DNA of 64,000 bases from an uncultured Clostridia bacterium. GTDB lineage: Bacteria; Bacillota; Clostridia; Oscillospirales; Ruminococcaceae. Shown here piece by piece: positions 45,981-59,046 of this stretch (the stretch's first letter is position 1; the number at the start of each line of letters is the position of its first letter). A program made the position numbers and the translations under genes. A model generated the notes under the pieces. The model saw only the letters and a program-made list of their open reading frames with translations. It was not told where the DNA came from and did not search any database. The stretch is from NCBI GenBank assembly GCA_945829235.1, contig CALZUA010000010.1:1-64000 (forward strand), given 5' to 3'.

Positions 45981-46009
45981 ATTATAACATAATTTTTCAA
46001 ATATTGCAA
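45981..46009 (-). promoter_or_regulatory. Predicted promoter of the GGDEF-EAL gene
   Basis: Minus strand TTGCAA, 17-nt spacer, TATAAT. Confidence 0.65.
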
Positions 46010-46080
46010 GGGTATTTGTGGAAATTGACGAACATTTTTGGTATATTTTACAATCGTGAGCAATTGTAAAAAATGCACAA

Positions 46081-46111
46081 AAAACACCCAAAAATTTGAC
46101 TTTTCGGGTGT
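46081..46111 (-). terminator. Predicted terminator of the amino-acid ABC operon
   Basis: Minus strand ACACCCGAAAAGTCAAATTTTTGGGTGTTTTTT. Confidence 0.7.
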
Positions 46112-46138
46112 CTTTTCTTATTAAAACCGAACTCGGTT

Positions 46139-46924
46139 TCAGATATTTTCGAGTGATTTCTCGAGGAACGCTTTGGTTCTCGGGCTTTTCGGGTTTCCGA
46201 AAACCTCGTCGGGAGTACCCTCTTCCTCGATAACGCCGTTTGCCATAAAGATAACCTTGTCCGCAACGCCGCGCGCGAAATTCATCTCGTGCGTCACGAC
46301 AATCATTGTGCGGTCGGTGCTTTTCAGCTCGCGGATAACCCGCAAAACCTCGCCGGTAAGCTCCGGGTCAAGCGCCGAGGTCGGCTCGTCAAAGCAAAGT
46401 ATGTCCGGACTCAGCGCAAGCGCTCTCGCAATCGCAACGCGCTGTTGCTGTCCGCCCGACAGATTGCACGGGTAATCTCCCGCCTTTTCCGCAAGCCCGA
46501 CTGTCGCCAAAAGCTGCCGCGAGTTGTCCTCGATTTCCTTGAAAATGCGCCGTTTCTCGTCTTTCGCCAGCTTCTTCCCGTCCGTTTCAAGCAACTCCCG
46601 CGCAAGCGATACGTTTTTCAGCACCGTGTACTGCGGGAACAAATTGAACTGCTGAAATACCAGCCCGAACCGCAGCCGTTTCTCGCGCTTTTCCTTGTCG
46701 GTGTACGTTTTTTCCGCGTTGAACAGCTCCTCGCCGTCCACGGAGAAGCTGCCGCTGTCCGCTCTTTCGAGGAAGTTCAGACAGCGCAGAAGCGTTGTCT
46801 TGCCGCTGCCCGAAGAGCCGATTATCGCGAGTACCTCGCCCTTTTCCATCGAAAAACCGACGTTTTTCAGAACCTCGTTTTTGCCGAAGCTCTTTTGTAT
46901 TCCGTTGACCTCAAGAAACGCCAA
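46139..46924 (-). CDS. Polar amino-acid ABC transporter ATPase
   Basis: GSSGSGKTTLLRCLNFLE; LSGGQQQRVAIARAL; FDEPTSALDPEL. Confidence 0.93.
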   Translation of the reverse strand: MAFLEVNGIQKSFGKNEVLKNVGFSMEKGEVLAIIGSSGSGKTTLLRCLNFLERADSGSFSVDGEELFNAEKTYTDKEKREKRLRFGLVFQQFNLFPQYTVLKNVSLARELLETDGKKLAKDEKRRIFKEIEDNSRQLLATVGLAEKAGDYPCNLSGGQQQRVAIARALALSPDILCFDEPTSALDPELTGEVLRVIRELKSTDRTMIVVTHEMNFARGVADKVIFMANGVIEEEGTPDEVFGNPKSPRTKAFLEKSLENI

Positions 46925-46935
46925 AGTTCTTCACC

Positions 46936-47583
46936 TCAACTATGATAATAATTCAGCTTCTTCTCAACACGATTGAGCAGTATCGTGAGCAGTCCCGAAA
47001 ACAGCAGGTAAAACGCCCCGATATAGAACATCGGCCAGATTATCGCCTTTTGCGCGACAATCTGCTGAGCCGCCTGAACCAGCTCCACAACCATTATTAC
47101 ACGCGCCAAGGACGTGTCCTTGACGAGCGTTATGATTTCGTTGCCCATCGGCGGCACAATCCGCTTGATAACCTGAAACAGCACGATTTTGAAGAAAATC
47201 TGCTTTTTCGTCATTCCGAGAACCTGTCCCGCTTCGTACTGCCCTTTCGGAATGCTTTCAATTCCGCCGCGGTAAATCTCCGAGAAATAACACGAATAAT
47301 TTATCACAAAGGCAACCAGCACCGCAGCCAGCCTCGGAAGCGAGTCCCAGCCGAAAATAAGCCCCGGCCCGTAGAACACGATGATTATCTGAAGCATAAG
47401 CGGAGTGCCGCGGATTATCCAGACAAACGTTTTCACAAGCCACTTTATCGGCGGGATTTTCGACATTGAGCCGAATGTTATCAAAAGTCCGAGCGGCAAT
47501 GAGCAGACAAGCGTTATTCCAAAAATCAACAGCGTTGTCAAAAAGCCGTTGGCAAGCTGCGCGGTTACTTCCAGAAACGACAT
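46936..47583 (-). CDS. Polar amino-acid ABC transporter permease
   Basis: FVWIIRGTPLMLQIIIVFYG; GMTKKQIFFKIVLFQVIKRIVPPMGNEII. Confidence 0.93.
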   Translation of the reverse strand: MSFLEVTAQLANGFLTTLLIFGITLVCSLPLGLLITFGSMSKIPPIKWLVKTFVWIIRGTPLMLQIIIVFYGPGLIFGWDSLPRLAAVLVAFVINYSCYFSEIYRGGIESIPKGQYEAGQVLGMTKKQIFFKIVLFQVIKRIVPPMGNEIITLVKDTSLARVIMVVELVQAAQQIVAQKAIIWPMFYIGAFYLLFSGLLTILLNRVEKKLNYYHS

Positions 47584-47602
47584 ATTTTCACCCTTATTTC
47601 AA

Positions 47603-48412
47603 TCAGTTGAACGCGTAAACATCGGCAAGGTCGTACTTCTCGCAAAGCGCCTTGAGGCTGCCGTCCTTAACCATCTCGTCAATCGCCGCGTTAATCTTCT
47701 TCTGAAGCTCAACGTCACCCTTGCGGATACCGACAGCGTACTCCTCGGGCGCAAGATTTACGTTTTCAACAATCATCAAATCGGAATAATCCGTGCCGTC
47801 ACCGACAGAAGCCTTCGCCATAACGTAGTCGATAACGCCGATTTCGGTTGTGCCCGCCTTGATTTCCATAAGAACGTCCTTCTGCGCCGCGGAGCCGTTG
47901 TAGTTCTTCTTCAGGTTCTCGTCAGCCTGAACCGCCGTTTCACCCGCAGAGCCGATTTCCGCTGTTACCGAAGCGCCCGCCATAGAAGCCAAATCCTTGT
48001 ACTTGTCGGCGTTTGCCTTCTTGATAATCGCAACCTGTCTGTTTCTGATGTAAGGAGTCGAGAAAATTATCTTCTCGGCAAGGTCAGCCTTGACGGTCAT
48101 TCCGTTCCAAATAACGTCAATCTTCTTTGCGTCAAGCTCGAAAACCTTGTTGTCCCAGTTGATTTCCTGGAATTTCGGCTTTACGCCGAGCTTGTTGCAG
48201 ACAGCCGTGGTGAACTCGGTTTCAAAGCCCGTGAGCTCGCCGGTGTTGTCGTCAAAATAGTTCATCGGCTTGAAGTATGTAATTCCGACAACAAGCTCGC
48301 CCTTGCTCTGAATGTAATCCCAGTCCTTCTTTTCGCCGCCCTTACAGCCGCAAAGTCCGACAGCCGCCGCAACAGCAAGAAAAATCGCCATAATCTTCTT
48401 TTTCATTGTCAT
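47603..48412 (-). CDS. Amino-acid ABC transporter substrate-binding lipoprotein
   Basis: Lipobox VGLCGCKGG; periplasmic binding protein 3 pattern (ELTGFETEFTTAVCNKLG). Confidence 0.93.
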   Translation of the reverse strand: MTMKKKIMAIFLAVAAAVGLCGCKGGEKKDWDYIQSKGELVVGITYFKPMNYFDDNTGELTGFETEFTTAVCNKLGVKPKFQEINWDNKVFELDAKKIDVIWNGMTVKADLAEKIIFSTPYIRNRQVAIIKKANADKYKDLASMAGASVTAEIGSAGETAVQADENLKKNYNGSAAQKDVLMEIKAGTTEIGVIDYVMAKASVGDGTDYSDLMIVENVNLAPEEYAVGIRKGDVELQKKINAAIDEMVKDGSLKALCEKYDLADVYAFN

Positions 48413-48472
48413 TTTCCTTTCTTTTTGTCAAAGTAACACTTTAACATACTATATTGTTTCACAACATCTTTT

Positions 48473-48501
48473 ATTATAACACATTTCGCCGTGTTTGTCA
48501 A
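48473..48501 (-). promoter_or_regulatory. Predicted promoter of the amino-acid ABC operon
   Basis: Minus strand TTGACA, 17-nt spacer, TATAAT. Confidence 0.75.
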
Positions 48502-48669
48502 CCGTTGCTTTTCGCGTGTTGGAGCGAAATCTCGGTTGTTTATGTTGAACAAAACAGCCGACAAAATTTGTCAAAAATCCACATAAATTCCACAAACCCC
48601 TTGTTATTTCGCGAAAAATGTAATACAATAGAAGATGTACAATTTAACAATTTAAAGGAGCACAGAAAA

Positions 48670-50304
48670 ATGCCTATAACCGATTTACTCGAACAAAACG
48701 CCGAGAAATACGCAACGGAGGTCGCGCTGGTTGAGGTCAACCCGCAGATTGTCGAAAAACCCCGTATGCTTTGGAAGGACTACGACCTTATTCAGCCTAC
48801 GTCCTCGCTTTGGTACCGCCGCGAAATCACTTGGAGCGTGTTTAACGAGAAAGCAAACCGCTTCGCTCAGCTTCTCATCAGCCGCGGCGTGAAAAAAGGC
48901 GATAAAGTGGCTATTCTGCTTATGAACTGCCTTGAGTGGCTGCCGATTTACTTTGGTATACTGAAAACGGGTGCGCTTGCCGTGCCGATGAATTTCCGTT
49001 ACAGTGCCGAGGAAATCAAGTACTGCCTTGATTTGGCGGACGCGGACGTGTTGGTTTTCGGTCCCGAGTTTATCGGAAGAATTGAAACCATTGCTGAGGA
49101 AATCGGCAAAAAACGGATTTTGTTCTATGTCGGCGGCGACTGCCCGTCATTTGCCGAGGATTACGACAAGCTCTCGTCAAACTGCGCGAGCGTTTCTCCG
49201 GGGATTGAGCTGTCCGAGGACGATGACGCGGCGATTTACTTCTCATCGGGCACGACAGGTTTCCCGAAGGCGATTTTACATAATCACAGAGCGCTTATGC
49301 ACTCCTGCAAGGTTGAACAAAACCACCACAAGCAGACGCACGATGACGTGTTCCTCTGCATTCCGCCGCTCTATCACACGGGCGCAAAAATGCACTGGTT
49401 CGGCAGTCTTATCACGGGAAGCAAAGCGGTTTTGCTCAAAGGTGTAACGCCGAATGCGGTGCTCAAGACGGTTTCCGAGGAAAAATGCACGATTGTGTGG
49501 TTGCTCGTGCCGTGGGCGCTCGATATCCTCGAGGCGCTCGACAACGGAAGCGAGAAGCTCTCCGACTATAATCTGTCGCAGTGGCGGCTAATGCACATCG
49601 GCGCGCAACCCGTTCCGCAGAGCCTTATCCAGCGCTGGCAGAAGTATTTCCCGAACCAGCAGTACGACACGAACTACGGCTTGTCCGAGTCGATAGGTCC
49701 GGGTTGTGTTCACCTCGGAATTGAGAACATCAACAAAATCGGTGCTATCGGTATCGCGGGCTACGGCTGGGAAACCAAAATCATCAACGACAAGGGTGAG
49801 GAGGTTGCTCAGGGCGAGGTTGGCGAGCTTGCTGTAAAAGGCCCCGGCGTGATGAAGTGCTACTACAAAAATCCCGAAGCAACCGCCGAAGCGCTCCACG
49901 ACGGCTGGCTGTGGACGGGTGATATGGCGCGTATGGACGAGGACGGCTTCATTTTCCTCGTTGACCGCAAAAAAGACGTTGTCATCAGCGGCGGCGAAAA
50001 TCTTTATCCCGTTGAAATCGAGAACTTTATGGCGAAATTCGACAAAATCAAAGACGTTGCCGTTATCGGTCTGCCCGACAAGCGTTTGGGCGAAATCGCC
50101 GCGGCTATTGTCGAACTGAAGGCGGGCGAAACCTGCACGGAGGACGAAATCAACGAGTTCTGCCTCGGAATGCCGCGCTACAAGCGACCGAAGAAGATTA
50201 TCTTCGCGGAGGTTCCGAGAAACGCGACCGGCAAAATTGAGAAGCCTAAGCTCCGCAAAATTTACGCGGGCGAAAATATTGTTGATATGGAAAACAAGAG
50301 TTGA
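48670..50304 (+). CDS. AMP-binding acyl-CoA ligase/synthetase
   Basis: YFSSGTTGFPKAILHNH; GYGWETKIIN; LWTGDMARMDEDGFIFLVDRKKDVVISGGENLYPVEIE. Confidence 0.93.
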   Translation: MPITDLLEQNAEKYATEVALVEVNPQIVEKPRMLWKDYDLIQPTSSLWYRREITWSVFNEKANRFAQLLISRGVKKGDKVAILLMNCLEWLPIYFGILKTGALAVPMNFRYSAEEIKYCLDLADADVLVFGPEFIGRIETIAEEIGKKRILFYVGGDCPSFAEDYDKLSSNCASVSPGIELSEDDDAAIYFSSGTTGFPKAILHNHRALMHSCKVEQNHHKQTHDDVFLCIPPLYHTGAKMHWFGSLITGSKAVLLKGVTPNAVLKTVSEEKCTIVWLLVPWALDILEALDNGSEKLSDYNLSQWRLMHIGAQPVPQSLIQRWQKYFPNQQYDTNYGLSESIGPGCVHLGIENINKIGAIGIAGYGWETKIINDKGEEVAQGEVGELAVKGPGVMKCYYKNPEATAEALHDGWLWTGDMARMDEDGFIFLVDRKKDVVISGGENLYPVEIENFMAKFDKIKDVAVIGLPDKRLGEIAAAIVELKAGETCTEDEINEFCLGMPRYKRPKKIIFAEVPRNATGKIEKPKLRKIYAGENIVDMENKS

Positions 50305-50960
50305 TTTACGCGCTTGAAAATCCCGATTTCCTGAAAATCACCGACAAAAACGGCGCTTTTTACGGCGGCGCGCAAGCGTGGTTTTCGGACAGGTTTTCCG
50401 TAAACGGCGGGTGCGGAGTGGTTTGCGCGGCAAATATTCTCGCGTATCTCGCGGCTTCCGATGAAAAATACGCTCGGCTTTACCCGCAAAATTCGCTCTC
50501 GAAACAGGATTTTACCGCGTTTATGGAGGAGCTTTGCGCGTTCGTCAAAATCAGGAATTTCTTTGGGAAGCCGCTTGGCGTGTGGGGTGAAAAACGCTTT
50601 GAAAAGGGCGTGCTCGGGTACGCGAAAAGCCGCTCGGTTGAGCTTTCGGCGGTTGCGTTTAACGGGAAAATGACACTCGAAAACGCCGCAAATTTCATCA
50701 AAAACGCGCTCTCGGAGAATTTGCCCGTGGCGATGCTCATCGGCTTTAATAGCCGGCTCAAAAACGTGCGGTACGTTTACCCGAGCGGAAACGCGCTGAA
50801 TTACAGCTTCGAGCGGCACTGGGTTACGATAACCGAGCTTTCCGAAAACGACGGAAAATTCACGGTCAAGGTTTCGTCTTGGGGAGCGTTTGCGTTCATC
50901 GATTTGGCGGATTTTATCGAGGGCGAGAAAATCTATTCGGCACTGGTTCACTTTAAATAG
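50301..50960 (+). CDS. Papain/C39-like fold protein (tentative), TTG start overlapping the preceding stop
   Basis: VNGGCGVVCAANILAYLA (Cys) and RHWVTITELSENDGKFTVKVSSWG (His/Asn-like). Confidence 0.5.
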   Translation: MIYALENPDFLKITDKNGAFYGGAQAWFSDRFSVNGGCGVVCAANILAYLAASDEKYARLYPQNSLSKQDFTAFMEELCAFVKIRNFFGKPLGVWGEKRFEKGVLGYAKSRSVELSAVAFNGKMTLENAANFIKNALSENLPVAMLIGFNSRLKNVRYVYPSGNALNYSFERHWVTITELSENDGKFTVKVSSWGAFAFIDLADFIEGEKIYSALVHFK

Positions 50961-50963
50961 CAA

Positions 50964-50991
50964 AAACGGCAGGATTTTTCACCTGCCGTTT
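50964..50991. terminator. Bidirectional terminator between the 50301 ORF and the gatD-like gene
   Basis: AAACGGCAGG-ATTTTTCA-CCTGCCGTTT. Confidence 0.8.
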
Positions 50992-50993
50992 GT

Positions 50994-51611
50994 TTATTTC
51001 AGAAGATTTGCGAAATACTCCGCAACCGCTTTGTTGCGTATCAGAAGCGGTCCGATAATGTGCGTGCCGTAGAAATTCCCGTCGATAATTCCCTCAACGG
51101 CAGTTTCGTTTTTATTGTTGCCCGCGCCCTGCTTTACCGTGAAAAACGGCTTTGTTATGCCGAAAATCTCGCTTGCCTTGTTGACGAAGCCGATAATTTC
51201 CGAGCCGTTAAACTCGCAAAGGCTGTCGGTCACGGTGCGCTTGTCGCTCTCGGTTGTCGTGAAGTCGAAAAAGCCTAAACCCTCGAACTCCCTGCCGTTT
51301 TTGTCGGTGATTTTCTTGCCGAACATCTCGAAAGAATTGCCCGTTGCCAGCACCACAGCGCCGCGCTTCATTGCTTCACGAAGCTCCTCGCGAAGCGGCT
51401 TCAGCGCCTCGAGAGCAACCTTTTGGTTTTTCTCCGTGCCCGAGCCGATGTAGATGAAATCAGCGTCCGAAAGGTCAATTTTGTCGCCCACGGACTGCTT
51501 CTCCAGCGTTACCGAAACGCCGCGGTTTTCAAGCTCGCGCTTGAGGGCAAGCGTGTTCGCATACTCGCCGTACAAATTCATCAGATTGTGGAACAAATGC
51601 AGAATTTTCAT
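50994..51611 (-). CDS. GatD-like glutamine amidotransferase-fold protein lacking catalytic residues
   Basis: Coupled by ATGA overlap to murT; MKILHLFHNLMNLYGEYANTLALKRELENRG...VVLATGNSFEMFGKK...GTHIIGPLLIRN. Confidence 0.8.
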   Translation of the reverse strand: MKILHLFHNLMNLYGEYANTLALKRELENRGVSVTLEKQSVGDKIDLSDADFIYIGSGTEKNQKVALEALKPLREELREAMKRGAVVLATGNSFEMFGKKITDKNGREFEGLGFFDFTTTESDKRTVTDSLCEFNGSEIIGFVNKASEIFGITKPFFTVKQGAGNNKNETAVEGIIDGNFYGTHIIGPLLIRNKAVAEYFANLLK

Positions 51612-52930
51612 TTTTGCACCTCCACTTTCGACAGGAATTTCGCCTTGTCCGAAAAGCACGTCACCGTGTACAGCTTCTCACGGTTTTCCGTCTTGATTTC
51701 ATCGATTGCCGCCTCGATGTCGGGGTTTGTGTACAGCTTTTCGGCGGGGATTTCCGTGAACGAAAAGCGCGTTCTGAGGTCCTCGCAGTGCGCGCCGAGA
51801 AGGTAAATTTTCTCCACGCACGGCGCGTTCAGAAGCTCGAAATCTATGTCCCAGAGCCAGCTTATCTCGCCGGTTGAATAACGTCTGCTCACCGCGTCCA
51901 CGATTATGATAACCCCGCAGGGCTGATTTTGTCCGATAATGTACCGAATCGATTGGTCGTAGGAAATCGAGTTTTCGTGCTTGGAAACGAGGAAAGTGCC
52001 GCTCGAATTTCCGAGCTTGTACTGCACAACTCTGCCGTTTTTCAGCACATAATCGCTCACAGCCGCCGCGATTTTCTCCTCGTCAATCCCCACAAGCGAG
52101 CACACCGCAAAGCACGCCAAAATGTTGTAAACATTGTAAATGCTCTTGAATGCGAGCGTGATTTTCTCCTTGCCGTTTATCGTGACAACGCCGTTTTCGA
52201 GGTCGGCGCTCGTTATCGTGAAATCGGTCGCGTGCTTTTTGTGACCGCAGTTTTCGCAGAAATAATCGCCGATGTGGTTGTAGTGACGGAAATTGTACTT
52301 CATCGGTTTTTTGCAGTTCGGGCAAAACGCGCCGTCATCATAGACGGACTTGTTCTCGGTGAACGAGAAATCCTGCTTGTCCATTCCGAACCAAACGACG
52401 TTTTCCCTGTCCTTGCCGTAGAGCGACACAAGCGGGTCGTCCGCGTTCAGGATAAGCGTGGATTTTTCGGTAACGGACGGCGCAATCGCGTCAAAAACCC
52501 ACTCGGGATGACCGTTTCGCGTGAGCTGGTCGCGGTAGAGGTTGGTGATAACGTAGTGCGTGGGCGAGAAGTGGCTGAACGTGAACTTTGAGTAACGCTC
52601 GTCGCTTTCGAGTAGCAAAACATCGCCCTTGAGCTTTCCGCCGAGCGTGCAGTTGGACAAAATCAGCGTCGTCACGCCCTCAATCTGATTTGAACCCTCG
52701 CGGTTCCAGATAACCTTTTTGCCCTCTTTTTCAAGAATATAGGCAATCATCTCCACGGTTGACGTTTTGCCGTTGCTTCCCGTGACCGCGATAACCTTGT
52801 CAGGCAATTTCACCTTCGACAAAATATTCGGCGACAGCTTCAGCGCAATCTGCCCCGGCATACTCGACCCGCGCCCTATCAGCTTTCCGATAAACCGCAG
52901 AATTTTGCAAACTAAAATCGTGAAAAACAT
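51608..52930 (-). CDS. murT: MurT-like Mur ligase (lipid II isoglutaminyl synthase subunit)
   Basis: VIAVTGSNGKTSTVEMIAYIL; C4 Zn ribbon CPNCKKPMKYNFRHYNHIGDYFCENC; C-terminal DUF1727-like region. Confidence 0.9.
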   Translation of the reverse strand: MFFTILVCKILRFIGKLIGRGSSMPGQIALKLSPNILSKVKLPDKVIAVTGSNGKTSTVEMIAYILEKEGKKVIWNREGSNQIEGVTTLILSNCTLGGKLKGDVLLLESDERYSKFTFSHFSPTHYVITNLYRDQLTRNGHPEWVFDAIAPSVTEKSTLILNADDPLVSLYGKDRENVVWFGMDKQDFSFTENKSVYDDGAFCPNCKKPMKYNFRHYNHIGDYFCENCGHKKHATDFTITSADLENGVVTINGKEKITLAFKSIYNVYNILACFAVCSLVGIDEEKIAAAVSDYVLKNGRVVQYKLGNSSGTFLVSKHENSISYDQSIRYIIGQNQPCGVIIIVDAVSRRYSTGEISWLWDIDFELLNAPCVEKIYLLGAHCEDLRTRFSFTEIPAEKLYTNPDIEAAIDEIKTENREKLYTVTCFSDKAKFLSKVEVQK

Positions 52931-52934
52931 TTCT

Positions 52935-53615
52935 TTACCTCGTTAACTCGTCAATAACCGTCGCCGCCATCAGCAACCCCGCCGCTGACGGAACATACGC
53001 GCAAGAAGCCGGCGTGCGCTCGGTTATCACGGGCTCTTCTGTTGAATAGACAACGCGAAGCCGCTCTACGCCCGCTTTCCGCAAGCGCTGCCGCATAACC
53101 CGTGCCAGCGGGCAAACCGATGTTTCGTAGATATCGGCAACCCGAAATCCCATCGGATTGAGCTTGTTCCCCGCGCCCATTGAGCTGATTATCCGCACGT
53201 TTTTCCGAGTGCAGGTTTCCGCCAAAAGCACCTTTGCGGCTACATCATCAATGCAGTCGAGAACATAATCGTACTCGGTGAAATCGAACTGCCCTGCGGT
53301 TTCCTCGCCGAAAAACAGCGGGAATTTCCGCAAGCTAAGCTCGGGGTTGATGTCGAGAAACCGCTTCTCGCAAACGTCCGTTTTGAGTTGCCCGACTGTG
53401 CTGTGAAGCGCGACAAGCTGGCGGTTGAGATTCGAGAGCGCAACCGTGTCGCCGTCAATGATGTCAAGCGCGCCGACTCCCGTTCTCACAAGAGCCTCTG
53501 CCGCGTGACCGCCGACTCCGCCGAGCCCGAAAACCGCGATTTTCACGCCCGCAAGCCGCTCGACAGCGTTTTCGCCGAGTAGCTTCGCGGTTCTCTGCAA
53601 TTCTTCCCTTACCAC
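52935..53615 (-). CDS. tcdA: tRNA threonylcarbamoyladenosine dehydratase (ThiF/MoeB family), GTG start
   Basis: VKIAVFGLGGVGGHAAEALVRTGVGALDIIDGDTVALSNLNRQ; start trimmed to VVREELQRTAKLLGENAVERL overlapping the pyrD stop. Confidence 0.82.
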   Translation of the reverse strand: MVREELQRTAKLLGENAVERLAGVKIAVFGLGGVGGHAAEALVRTGVGALDIIDGDTVALSNLNRQLVALHSTVGQLKTDVCEKRFLDINPELSLRKFPLFFGEETAGQFDFTEYDYVLDCIDDVAAKVLLAETCTRKNVRIISSMGAGNKLNPMGFRVADIYETSVCPLARVMRQRLRKAGVERLRVVYSTEEPVITERTPASCAYVPSAAGLLMAATVIDELTR

Positions 53616-54520
53616 GGCTTGACCTGTCCGACAATCTCGGAGAGCGATTTTATGCCGTTTTTGTCCATATATTCCTCGATGCCCTCGATAACTTTCAGCG
53701 GCGCGTACGGGTCGGTGAAAATCGCCGTGCCCATCTGAATTGCGGTCGCGCCCGCAAGCATCATCTCGATAGCGTCCTCCCAAGTGGAGATGCCGCCCAT
53801 TCCGATTATCGGGATTTTAACCGCGTTGAAGCACTGCCATACCATTCTCACCGCAACAGGGAACACGGCAGGTCCGCTCATACCGCCCATATTGTTTTTC
53901 AAAATCGGACGGCGGGAGTTGATGTCGATACGCATTCCCAAAAGCGTGTTTATCAGCGAAATGCAGTCCGCGCCCTCTGCTTCAACCGCTTTCGCGATGC
54001 TTGTGATATCGGTAACATTCGGCGTGAGCTTCACGATAAGCGGCTTTTTTGTCGCTCTCCTGACAGCAGACATAACCGCCGCCGCGCCCTCGCAGGAAAC
54101 TCCCCACGAAGCGCCGCCCTGCTTTACGTTCGGACAGGAGATGTTCAACTCAATCATATCGATATCCGAAGCGTCGAGCGCTTCTGCCGCCGCTATATAA
54201 TCGTCAATTGTTGCTCCCGCAACGTTCGCGATGATAACGTTGCCCTCTTCCTTTAACGTGGGAAGATAGTACTCGATAAACCCGTGAACGCCGATGTTCT
54301 GAAGTCCAACCGAGTTCAGAATTCCCGAATAAGTTTCGGCAATTCGAGGCGGAGGATTTCCGAGCTTCGGCTCAATCGTCATTCCCTTGCAGGAAACGCC
54401 GCCCAGCTTTGAAAGCGGGTACAAATCGGTATAGCACTCGCCGTTTCCGTACGTTCCCGAAGCGGCAATCACGGGGTTCGGAAACTCAACTCCCGCTATT
54501 CTTACAGACAAATCAACCAC
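53609..54520 (-). CDS. pyrD: Dihydroorotate dehydrogenase B, catalytic subunit
   Basis: ELNISCPNVKQGG; LSVRIAGVEFPNPVIAASGTYG. Confidence 0.95.
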   Translation of the reverse strand: MVDLSVRIAGVEFPNPVIAASGTYGNGECYTDLYPLSKLGGVSCKGMTIEPKLGNPPPRIAETYSGILNSVGLQNIGVHGFIEYYLPTLKEEGNVIIANVAGATIDDYIAAAEALDASDIDMIELNISCPNVKQGGASWGVSCEGAAAVMSAVRRATKKPLIVKLTPNVTDITSIAKAVEAEGADCISLINTLLGMRIDINSRRPILKNNMGGMSGPAVFPVAVRMVWQCFNAVKIPIIGMGGISTWEDAIEMMLAGATAIQMGTAIFTDPYAPLKVIEGIEEYMDKNGIKSLSEIVGQVKPW

Positions 54521-55286
54521 CGAACTTCACCTCCTCAGCATTGAAAACAGGACCGTCCTTGCAGACTCTCGAATAAAACTCCTGCCCGTTTCTCACGGTC
54601 ATACACGAGCAAACCACGCAAGCTCCCACTCCGCAGCCCATTCGCTGCTCAAGCGAAACTTGGCAAGCAACGCCGTGCTCCTCGCAGGTCTTGATGACCG
54701 CTTTCAGCATCGGCTCCGGTCCACACGCGCACACAAGAGCGTACTCGCCCGTTTTAAGCTCCTCGGCAAGCGGCGTTGTCACAACTCCGTGAACGCCAAC
54801 ACTTCCGTCATCGGTGCAAATCACCGTCTTTGAGCAATATTCCTCGAACTCGTCCTTGAGGATAATCCTCGAGTAATCGCGAAATCCCAAAATCGCCGTG
54901 CAAAGCGAACTTGTTCTCCGAGCGATTTCAAGCAGCGGCGGCGTGCCTATTCCCCCGCCGACAACGATAATTTTCTTGCCCTCGGGAATACGAAAGCCGT
55001 TTCCGAGCGGTCCGAGGATATCAAGGCTCTCGCCCTCGACATAGCGCGAAAGCTCTGCCGTGCCCTTGCCGCGCACCTCGAAAACAAACCGCAGCGTGCC
55101 GTTTTCCTTGTCAATCTCGCAGATTGAAATCGGTCTGCGCAGGGTGAAACCCGCAACGCCGATATTCGCGAATTGTCCCGGCTGCGCTTCGTCGGCAAGC
55201 TCGGGCGCGTCCGCAACCATTGAATAAATTCCCTTTGCGAGTGTTTTTCGTTCAATTATCGGGTATTTTCCGCAAAAAAAGCTCAT
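54513..55286 (-). CDS. pyrK: Dihydroorotate dehydrogenase B, electron transfer subunit
   Basis: FAD/NAD reductase fold and C-terminal 2Fe-2S Cys cluster MGCGVGACVVCSC. Confidence 0.95.
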   Translation of the reverse strand: MSFFCGKYPIIERKTLAKGIYSMVADAPELADEAQPGQFANIGVAGFTLRRPISICEIDKENGTLRFVFEVRGKGTAELSRYVEGESLDILGPLGNGFRIPEGKKIIVVGGGIGTPPLLEIARRTSSLCTAILGFRDYSRIILKDEFEEYCSKTVICTDDGSVGVHGVVTTPLAEELKTGEYALVCACGPEPMLKAVIKTCEEHGVACQVSLEQRMGCGVGACVVCSCMTVRNGQEFYSRVCKDGPVFNAEEVKFGG

Positions 55287-55819
55287 TTCTTCTCCCTTTC
55301 CTCGTTTTCGTCAACAACTGCCGCGCGAACGTGAACAACGTCCGTGCTTTTTTCCTCGTGGGACAGCGTGTTAATTCGGTGAATTGCCATTCTGATTATT
55401 ATCACAATCAGAAAAATATAGAGAAACAGCCGAAAATTCAGCAAATTTACCGCAATTCCAAGCGAAATTTCCTGAAATGTCAGCATACTCTCAAATATTA
55501 TCAGCAACAGCGGCAGTTTTATGAGTGATACCGAAAAAGCGTACCAATCATAGATATCCTGCGCGTTTTTCTTGGTAATATTATACCGTTTAAACGCGTG
55601 ATTTTTCAGCGTGAGCACAGCGTAAACTGCAAGAACTCCCAGCGCAAGCGCGGGAAATATCGCCGAAATTGCCGCTCTTTCGCCGCTGATAGCCTCGCCG
55701 CCGTTTATAAACCGCTCGGTCATATAGACAATAACCGCCGCTCCCGCAAGCGATATTATGTCGCAGATTATCCGCGACAATTTGTAGGAGCGGCGGACTG
55801 TGATTTTGCCGATTTTCAT
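55283..55819 (-). CDS. Hypothetical membrane protein within the pyr operon
   Basis: 178 aa, several TM segments, ATGA-type overlaps with pyrK and carB. Confidence 0.65.
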   Translation of the reverse strand: MKIGKITVRRSYKLSRIICDIISLAGAAVIVYMTERFINGGEAISGERAAISAIFPALALGVLAVYAVLTLKNHAFKRYNITKKNAQDIYDWYAFSVSLIKLPLLLIIFESMLTFQEISLGIAVNLLNFRLFLYIFLIVIIIRMAIHRINTLSHEEKSTDVVHVRAAVVDENEEREKK

Positions 55820-58800
55820 ATCTTCGTTATGTCAACAAGCTCGATATCCGAGATACTGCGCTTCGCTTCAAGGCAGTCGAGAAGCGCGTTCGCGGTATCT
55901 ATCGCAGTCAGGCACACAATCGAGCGCTCAACCGCTTTTCTTCTCATACGAACGCTGTCCAGCGACGGTTTTCTGCCCGTTTCGGAAGTCGAGATAACGT
56001 AGCTTATCTCGCCGCTTTCGAGAAGCGTGATAACGTTCGGCTCTTGCTCCTCGTGAATTCTGTAAACGTGGTTCGCGGCAATCATATTTCTGTTGAGAAC
56101 CGAAGCCGTGCCGCCCGTTGCGTAAATCTTGAAGCCAAGCTCCTCGAAACGCGAAGCAATCTCGATAATCTCGTTTTTGTCGCTGTCGCGAACGGAAATC
56201 AGCACGCCGTAGCTTCCGTCTTTGGAGTTCGGGTTCGGACCGTCCGCGGGGTGAGTGAACTTGTAGCCCGCCGCCATAAGCCCCTTGTAAAGCGCGTCAC
56301 CGAATGTTCTCGCAATGCCGAGGCACTCGCCCGTTGACTTCATCTCGGGACCGAGCTGGTTGTCAACATCGTGGAGCTTCTCAAAGCTGAACACCGGCAC
56401 TTTTACCGCAATATAATCGGCTTCGCGGTAAAGTCCGCTCTTGTAGCCCATATCTTTCAGCTTTTTGCCGAGAATAATTTTTGTCGCGAGGTCAACCATC
56501 GGTACACCCGTAACCTTGCTGATGTAAGGAACTGTTCTCGATGAACGCGGGTTAACCTCGATTACATAAACCTCGTGGTTGTACACAACGTACTGAATGT
56601 TTACAAGACCGATGACGTGGAGCGCTTTCGCAAGCTTTTCCGTGTAATCCACGATAACCTTTTTGATGTGCGCCGATAGATTCTGACACGGATAAATCGA
56701 AATCGAGTCGCCCGAGTGTATTCCCGCGCGCTCAACGTGCTCCATAATGCCGGGAATTACAAAATCCTCGCCGTCACAAATCGCGTCAACCTCGACTTCC
56801 GTTCCCATCATATATTTGTCGATAAGAACGGGATTTTCCAGCTCGTGAGAGGTGATTATCTTCATATATTCCGAAACATCGGAGTCAGCGTGCGCGATAA
56901 TCATATTCTGTCCGCCGAGAACGTAAGACGGACGCAACAAAACGGGATAACCAAGCTCGTTCGCTGCCTTCAGCGCTTCTTCCTCGGTGAAAACGGTTTC
57001 GCCCTTCGGACGCGGGATATTGCACTTTTCAAGCAGCTCGTCAAACAGCTCTCTGTCCTCTGCCGCGTCAATGTCGGCAGCCTGCGTTCCGAGAATGCGA
57101 ACACCCATTTCCGTGAGGTATTTCGTGAGCTTAATCGCGGTCTGTCCGCCAAACTGAACCACGCAACCGTAAGGCTTCTCGGTTGCCACAAGCGCTTCAA
57201 CGTCCTCTTTCGTGAGCGGGTCGAAGTAAAGGCGCGTGCCCGTGTCAAAGTCCGTGGAAACGGTTTCGGGGTTGTTGTTGCAGATAATCGCTTCGCAACC
57301 CTCTTCCTTCAATGTCCAAACGCAGTGAACCGAGCAATAGTCGAACTCAATTCCCTGTCCTATGCGGATAGGTCCCGAACCGAAAACGATAACCTTTTTC
57401 TTGTCGGACGGGTGCTGCTCGATAAACTCGGCAGCTTCGTTCTCCTCGTCAAAATCGTTGTAGAAATAAGGCGTTTCCGCGGAAAATTCAGCCGCGCAGG
57501 TGTCAACCATCTTGTAAACCGCAAGCTTTTTCGCGGGGCATTTTTGTCCGGAAATGCGCTCAATCGTGCTGTCGAGATAGCAATATTTCTTCGCGGTTTC
57601 GTATTTTTCAACCGTGAGCTCGCCCTCGGCAAGCCACTTTTCAAGCTCGACAAGATTGTTCAGCTTTGCGATAAACCACTTGTCAATCTTGGTGATTTCG
57701 TGTATTCTGTCGATGGAAATTCCGCGCTTCAGCGCCTCGAAAACGCAGAACGAGCGGTCAACGTCCACGTCATAGAGCTTCTTCCCAACCTGTTCATCGG
57801 TAAACTCGGTGAAATCGCGCTTTGTGAGCGTGTCCATTCCAAGCTCAATCGAACGCACCGCTTTCATCATTCCCGCTTCAAAGCTCGGCGCAATCGCCAT
57901 AATTTCGCCCGTCGCTTTCATCTGCGTGCCGAGCGTTTTCTTCGCGTAAACGAATTTATCGAAAGGCCATTTCGGGAATTTAACAACAAGATAATCCAGC
58001 GCCGGCTCAAAAGCAGCGTAGGTTTTTCCCGTAACCTGATTTACGATTTCATCGAGCGTGTAGCCGACGGCAATTCTAGCCGCAACCTTTGCTATCGGGT
58101 AGCCGGTTGCCTTAGAAGCAAGCGCCGATGAACGCGAAACACGCGGGTTAACCTCGATAACCGCGTACTCAAAACTGTCTGGTTTCAGCGCGAACTGGCA
58201 GTTGCACCCGCCCTCAACTTTGAGTGCCTGTATGATATCGAGAGCCGCTGTACGGAGCATCTGATATTCCTTATCGGCAAGCGTTACCGCGGGTGCAACG
58301 ACAATCGAGTCGCCCGTGTGAACGCCGACAGGGTCAAAGTTCTCCATCGAGCAGACCGTGATGACGTTGTTTTTGCTGTCGCGGATAACCTCAAACTCGA
58401 TTTCCTTCCAGCCCGAAATGCACTTCTCAACCAAAATCTGCGTTATCGGTGAAAGGCGCAGACCGTTTGTCGCGATTTCGTGGAGTTCTTCACGAGTTTC
58501 CGCGATACCGCCGCCCGTGCCGCCCAAAGTAAACGCAGGGCGCACGATAACGGGATAACCGATTTCCTCCGCGAACGCCATCGCGTCCTCGAGATTTTCC
58601 ACAACCTTTGACGGTATACACGGCTGTCCGATTTCCTCCATCGTGTCCTTGAAAGCCTGTCTGTCCTCGGCTTTGTGGATTGTTTCGGGATTTGAACCGA
58701 GTAATTTCACACCGTGCTCGGCAAGAAATCCGCTCTCGGCGAGCTGCATCGACAGCGTGAGCGCGGTCTGTCCGCCGAGGTTTGAAACAACGCTGTCGGG

Positions 58801-59046
58801 CTTTTCTATCTCGATTACACGTTTAACCACATCAAGCGTGAGCGGCTCGATATAGATTTTGTCCGCCATATGCTTGTCGGTCATAATTGTCGCGGGGTTC
58901 GAGTTTATCAGAACAACCTCCAAGCCCTCCGCCTTGAGCGCGCGGCAAGCCTGCGTTCCCGCATAGTCAAATTCGGCTGCCTGTCCGATAACGATAGGTC
59001 CCGAGCCGATTACAAGAACCTTTTTTATATCACTTCTCAACGGCAT
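55816..59046 (-). CDS. carB: Carbamoyl-phosphate synthase large subunit
   Basis: MPLRSDIKKVLVIGSGPIVIGQAAEFDYAGTQACRALKAEG. Confidence 0.98.
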   Translation of the reverse strand: MPLRSDIKKVLVIGSGPIVIGQAAEFDYAGTQACRALKAEGLEVVLINSNPATIMTDKHMADKIYIEPLTLDVVKRVIEIEKPDSVVSNLGGQTALTLSMQLAESGFLAEHGVKLLGSNPETIHKAEDRQAFKDTMEEIGQPCIPSKVVENLEDAMAFAEEIGYPVIVRPAFTLGGTGGGIAETREELHEIATNGLRLSPITQILVEKCISGWKEIEFEVIRDSKNNVITVCSMENFDPVGVHTGDSIVVAPAVTLADKEYQMLRTAALDIIQALKVEGGCNCQFALKPDSFEYAVIEVNPRVSRSSALASKATGYPIAKVAARIAVGYTLDEIVNQVTGKTYAAFEPALDYLVVKFPKWPFDKFVYAKKTLGTQMKATGEIMAIAPSFEAGMMKAVRSIELGMDTLTKRDFTEFTDEQVGKKLYDVDVDRSFCVFEALKRGISIDRIHEITKIDKWFIAKLNNLVELEKWLAEGELTVEKYETAKKYCYLDSTIERISGQKCPAKKLAVYKMVDTCAAEFSAETPYFYNDFDEENEAAEFIEQHPSDKKKVIVFGSGPIRIGQGIEFDYCSVHCVWTLKEEGCEAIICNNNPETVSTDFDTGTRLYFDPLTKEDVEALVATEKPYGCVVQFGGQTAIKLTKYLTEMGVRILGTQAADIDAAEDRELFDELLEKCNIPRPKGETVFTEEEALKAANELGYPVLLRPSYVLGGQNMIIAHADSDVSEYMKIITSHELENPVLIDKYMMGTEVEVDAICDGEDFVIPGIMEHVERAGIHSGDSISIYPCQNLSAHIKKVIVDYTEKLAKALHVIGLVNIQYVVYNHEVYVIEVNPRSSRTVPYISKVTGVPMVDLATKIILGKKLKDMGYKSGLYREADYIAVKVPVFSFEKLHDVDNQLGPEMKSTGECLGIARTFGDALYKGLMAAGYKFTHPADGPNPNSKDGSYGVLISVRDSDKNEIIEIASRFEELGFKIYATGGTASVLNRNMIAANHVYRIHEEQEPNVITLLESGEISYVISTSETGRKPSLDSVRMRRKAVERSIVCLTAIDTANALLDCLEAKRSISDIELVDITKI

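Follow-up and report, generated by a model that had tools for sequence, protein, structure and literature searches.

A GatD-like protein without the catalytic cysteine and histidine, and a candidate family of MurT-type ligases in Clostridia

In a 64,000-nucleotide stretch of DNA from an uncultured Clostridia bacterium (hereafter the window), two genes related to murT and gatD lie next to each other on the reverse strand. The first encodes a MurT-like Mur ligase subunit of 440 aa (51608..52930, -) and the second a GatD-like subunit of 205 aa (50994..51611, -; 78.7 bits to GATase_3). The murT stop and the gatD start share an ATGA overlap at 51608..51611 (-), as stated in the original prediction. 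The listed open reading frame of gatD runs further, to a GTG at 51659, but we chose the ATG at 51611 because it overlaps the MurT stop. The pair lies in pyrimidine surroundings (window 46000-59046) together with carB, pyrK- and pyrD-like open reading frames and a gene for a ThiF/TcdA-like protein; carB is also located shortly upstream of murT at four other loci (L051, L073, L323, and L324). Convergent with gatD is an open reading frame of 219 aa (50301-50957, +) that has no Pfam or NCBIfam match and whose segment FSVNGGCGVVCAANIL points to a cysteine peptidase fold of the papain type.

The GatD-like protein is predicted to adopt the class I glutaminase fold with high confidence (AlphaFold pLDDT 97; TM 0.91 to the S. 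aureus and S. pyogenes GatDs in 6gs2/9sq9). We aligned it to four solved GatDs from the PDB and found both catalytic motifs to be ungapped. The S. aureus segment TICGGYQFLGKK aligns with LATGNSFEMFGKK of the window, and GTYLHGP aligns with GTHIIGP. Accordingly, Cys94 of S. aureus is replaced by Gly91 (codon 51339-51341) in the former nucleophile elbow TGNS (T90-S93; 51333..51344, -), and the catalytic His189 is replaced by Ile186 (codon 51054..51056, -), as had been read from the sequence before. An alternative alignment that supplies a Cys nucleophile was excluded, since the sole cysteine of the protein is in SLCEF, distant from the elbow, and no gap interrupts either motif. Moreover, the oxyanion-loop Gly60 as well as Gln98, Glu147, and His149 are all replaced, and neither the Cys-His pair nor the oxyanion loop expected of a class I glutaminase is found. 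A second, active GatD, which might have served MurT instead, was not detected in the genome: it has a single MurT_C match, and its other GATase_3 matches read as PdxT and HisH from their sequences and neighbours. The predicted loss of glutamine hydrolysis is therefore well supported and agrees with the published S. aureus GatD C94G mutant, which carries the identical Cys-to-Gly change and in which glutamine-dependent amidation is abolished (PMC3266927, PMC6085368).

In gene order and in the folds of both subunits, the pair resembles the MurT/GatD lipid II isoglutaminyl synthase (6gs2/6h5e from S. aureus, 6fqb from S. pneumoniae, and 9sq9 from S. pyogenes), and the model of the window MurT matches streptococcal MurT with a TM of 0.75 by query length. 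The features of the Mur ligase superfamily, i.e. the P-loop GxNGKT, a magnesium-binding Glu, and the middle and C-terminal domains, are all present. In detail, the ATP P-loop TGSNGKT (T50-T56; 52763..52783, -), the magnesium/ATP-hydrolysis residue Glu108 (52607..52609, -), the Cys4 zinc ribbon (C203-C228; 52247..52324, -), and the RDQxxR loop are conserved, and Asn81 (52688..52690, -), the equivalent of S. pneumoniae MurT Asn85, is invariant in alignment A4. The counterparts of the S. pneumoniae residues N85, D136, R140, R304, and K321 are conserved as well; of these, N85, D136, and R140 are essential and N85 contacts the acceptor carboxylate. D139 and E143, whose mutation has minor effects in S. 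pneumoniae, are replaced by Thr and His. From these conserved residues we infer that the ATP and acceptor functions of MurT are kept. In contrast, the canonical NDNxADGxD loop is replaced by DAVSRRYSTGE (D345-E355; 51866..51898, -), so that DAVSRRYSTG stands in place of the DNAAD motif and Glu355 aligns with S. aureus D349. This aspartate, the last one of NDNxADGxD, completes the catalytic triad with GatD in S. aureus, and the DNAAD region has been likened to the amino-acid-binding motif of MurE. The original prediction of an intact-looking MurT thus stands for the ATP and acceptor sites but not for the GatD-facing loop. The window pair remains below the NCBIfam equivalog cut-offs (NF045636, 99.3 of 400 bits; NF045635, 206.5 of 800 bits).

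The window MurT shares its middle and C-terminal domains, and the predicted joining of an amine to an ATP-activated carboxyl, with MurC, MurD, MurE, MurF, and the archaeal pMurC/pMurE. It differs from these enzymes in lacking a UDP-binding N-terminal domain, in having a zinc ribbon, and in being paired with a GatD-like subunit. A further parallel is found in pseudomurein-making archaea, whose MurT-like ligases are presumed to work without a glutaminase (PMC11915815). These archaea lack GatD entirely, whereas the GatD-like subunit is kept here.

An alignment of 273 GatDs, mostly of Clostridia, revealed that the double loss is general and not the mutation of one gene. Both residues are missing in 197 of them and present in 75, and a single Cys-carrying GatD (L222) has Gln in place of His. 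The nucleophile position of the 197 Cys-less proteins is occupied by Gly (195) or Asn (2), and none of them has His at the His position. The coupling to MurT is all-or-none: Cys, His, and the canonical loop occur together in 74 pairs (plus one with a truncated MurT), and the absence of both residues goes with another loop in all 197. Likewise, the MurT_C scores in our family survey are bimodal, and the two score groups match the GatD type exactly. A scan of named genomes yielded 80 close MurT relatives, including those of Ruminococcus bromii, Oscillibacter valericigenes, Flavonifractor, Pseudoflavonifractor, Massiliimalia, and Erysipelotrichaceae MAGs. The partner GatD could be read for 79 of them, and Cys and His are both missing in every case. 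Between close relatives, gatD has a pN/pS of about 0.13 and is under purifying selection. That value, the open frames, the high-confidence fold, and a replacement shared by 197 sequences from both complete genomes and MAGs make it highly improbable that we are looking at a dying gene, a sequencing error, or a Cys missed through misalignment.

Some variation was seen around the catalytic positions. GatDs of the Oscillibacter group (L091-L124) have AGTA or CGTA instead of TGN[SA] at the elbow, which again places Gly where the Cys would be, and tend towards FASxLTGP. More than half of the sampled canonical clostridial GatDs carry HGS instead of HGP, which the literature calls well conserved. One MurT_C-like stretch with two in-frame stops (L253; G757:C1:1715314-1715505) is a probable pseudogene; its genome carries a canonical pair besides.

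The replacement loops of MurT fall into distinct conserved types, namely A (VDAxSRKYxT, as in the window), B (NNVxYTxxKD or NNINHTxxRDT), C (DDxYDxxxSTEN), and D (xDFVPHYxNTFYAFDCDF). Each is accompanied by its own GatD pocket: E98 (34/35) and K149 (32/35) in class A, R149 and W187 (14/14 each) in class B, K147 (15/18) and Q149 (16/18) in class C, and Q147 (30/30), N187 (28/30), and L189 (29/30) in class D. Because these class-specific residues are nearly invariant and the pN/pS is low, the pocket has been remade rather than eroded. The pairs would also offer a natural series of conversions from glutaminase to scaffold with at least four outcomes. We calculated a MurT tree without the loop columns by a quick search, in which the deep branching order is unsupported. 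Canonical MurTs nevertheless form one clade (SH-aLRT 97), as do class A with most of A2 (99), class B (100), class D (100), and class C together with two odd members (97). Several genomes carry two types, i.e. canonical and C (G155, G234), canonical and D (G928, G967), B and C (G158), A2 and C (G277), or C and D (G879). A genome would have little need for the same enzyme twice, and coexisting types therefore probably make different products.

In group B murein, whose architecture was already known in the 1970s, the bridge begins at the alpha-carboxyl of D-Glu, which is the group amidated by MurT, and Acetobacterium woodii has murein of this group. We know of no gene assigned to the bridge-starting enzyme. 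One of our genomes (G698; 4,044,777 bases) is A. woodii, since its CarE and LctC match the PDB entries 6fah and 7qh2 with 100% identity; its family is therefore Eubacteriaceae. A. woodii has a class D pair only. The same holds for the tested genera of this family with acetogen-like genomes and for genus g456, which is E. limosum-like and which we take as Eubacterium limosum and kin; two genera have the canonical pair, and one has both. In the literature, Eubacterium is listed with murein of type B2alpha and Erysipelothrix and Holdemania with B1delta, and the wall of E. limosum contains Orn, Lys, and Ser.

We found that class D pairs co-occur with a gene resembling the ornithine racemase Orr. 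In Eubacteriaceae, this gene (profile NF040742; matches of 398-447 bits against a curated cut-off of 480 bits) is present in 28 of 28 genomes with class D only, in none of the 6 with the canonical pair, and in neither of the 2 with both. Outside this family it occurs in 5/6 class D genomes and 2/53 others (Fisher p = 2e-5, with kinship accounted for only by counting lineages), and the co-occurrence spans at least four further lineages. The association is partly phylogenetic, with few independent lineages, and ornithine is a putative substrate, most matches being below the Orr cut-off. In one exception (G129), the Orr-like gene adjoins a gene that we assign to an ornithine/glutamate mutase cluster, and in G928 a class D pair occurs without an Orr-like gene. 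At locus L301, the racemase reading frame overlaps the class D gatD. Based on these sequence associations, a D-diamino acid such as D-ornithine, needed for group B bridges, is the best candidate for the class D amine. A gene for a PFL/DUF711-like protein (L302:3248-4606, L363:6528-7883) adjoins the class D pair of G845 and, in G911, an Orr-like gene; the class D system may thus have a third component. In Acetobacterium and relatives, the pair is located upstream of glmM and glmS, in some cases with mnmA in between; the adjoining MnmA was considered as a candidate partner and rejected as a standard MnmA.

The original prediction had left open whether the pair amidates with free ammonia, has a structural role only, or performs a different reaction. 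Our data speak for a nucleophile other than simple ammonia, because the loss in GatD is accompanied by a change of the MurT loop close to where the amine enters, and because there are several conserved loop types, coexisting pairs, and one type that tracks the ornithine-racemase-like gene. The main rival explanation is nevertheless an ammonia-dependent isoglutaminyl synthase, in which GatD would be only a scaffold and D-isoglutamine would be made from free NH4+/NH3, of which gut and rumen anaerobes have an ample supply. Gut anaerobes are indeed the main hosts of class A, the ATP and acceptor residues are conserved, and at pH 8.5 lipid II is amidated with NH3/NH4Cl when S. aureus MurT is combined with GatD C94G, with GatD still required (PMC3266927, PMC6085368). 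The natural pairs differ from this mutant in that the His, MurT D349, and the loop are changed too, and in that the change is fixed across many families. However, the C94G enzyme has no ammonia-dependent activity at pH 7.5. Using ammonia would not require the replacement of the whole NDNxADGxD loop in four distinct conserved ways, and it leaves both the canonical and Cys-less pairs of one genome and the link of class D with the racemase unexplained. We regard ammonia use as rather unlikely.

Instead, the pair may be a two-subunit, ATP-dependent Mur-type ligase of MurT/GatD ancestry that has lost glutamine-derived ammonia and attaches another amine, a proposal to which we give about an even chance. 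MurT would bind ATP and a D-Glu-containing wall precursor and, judging from its conserved residues, activate the alpha-carboxyl of D-Glu to an acyl phosphate. In place of ammonia, a different small amine would attack, in all likelihood an amino acid, and it would be chosen by the remade C-terminal loop of MurT and the former glutamine pocket of GatD. GatD itself would remain an obligate subunit that has a structural role and gates the substrate. As each of the at least four classes has its own conserved loop and pocket, each probably uses its own amine. In its wider form, which we put slightly below even, the hypothesis is that the Cys-less pairs constitute an undescribed ligase family aminoacylating the D-Glu alpha-carboxyl of peptidoglycan precursors, with the amino acid depending on the class, with GatD as selecting or scaffolding subunit, and with class D building the group B bridge together with the ornithine-racemase-like enzyme. 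If class D is the group B murein ligase, a gene could be assigned to that wall architecture. Our literature search, which covered few subscription journals, returned no account of a GatD lacking the Cys or of a ligase for group B murein.

Alternatively, the MurT-like subunit might ligate another carboxylate, for example of a glycopolymer or peptide, or the pair might be regulatory, with GatD in a structural role. The neighbouring genes, mostly housekeeping and varying by lineage (pyr, mnmG, recD2, mreB), fit such a function, as does the patchy distribution in the window's genus, where 17/43 genomes have any MurT_C match and the product is thus not essential everywhere. On the other hand, the acceptor-side MurT residues tested in S. 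pneumoniae are conserved, the Eubacteriaceae pair sits with the wall precursor genes glmM and glmS, and we found no sign of another acceptor. A role away from the D-Glu carboxyl of peptidoglycan therefore seems improbable to us, even more so than the use of ammonia.

If class A, to which the window pair belongs, aminoacylates as well, its amine should not come from an Orr-type racemase, because an Orr-like gene is absent from the window genome; it is also absent from G000, G031, G003, and the other class A genomes tested. The gene neighbourhood of class A provides no clue, consisting of lineage-specific housekeeping genes. Few class A organisms have published murein chemistry, and the entries for Ruminococcus and Oscillibacter in a review table on murein types are blank. 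D-isoglutamine is part of the muramyl dipeptide-type signals that are sensed by the host. Cys-less pairs are liable to be annotated as relatives of cobyric acid synthase or as lipid II isoglutaminyl synthase. A wall with D-isoglutamine could therefore be ascribed to many gut Oscillospiraceae, among them Ruminococcus bromii, Oscillibacter, and Flavonifractor, although their walls may not contain it. Within the window's genus, one genome (G007; L005) has a class B pair in place of class A, pointing to gain, loss, and exchange of these pairs inside a single genus.
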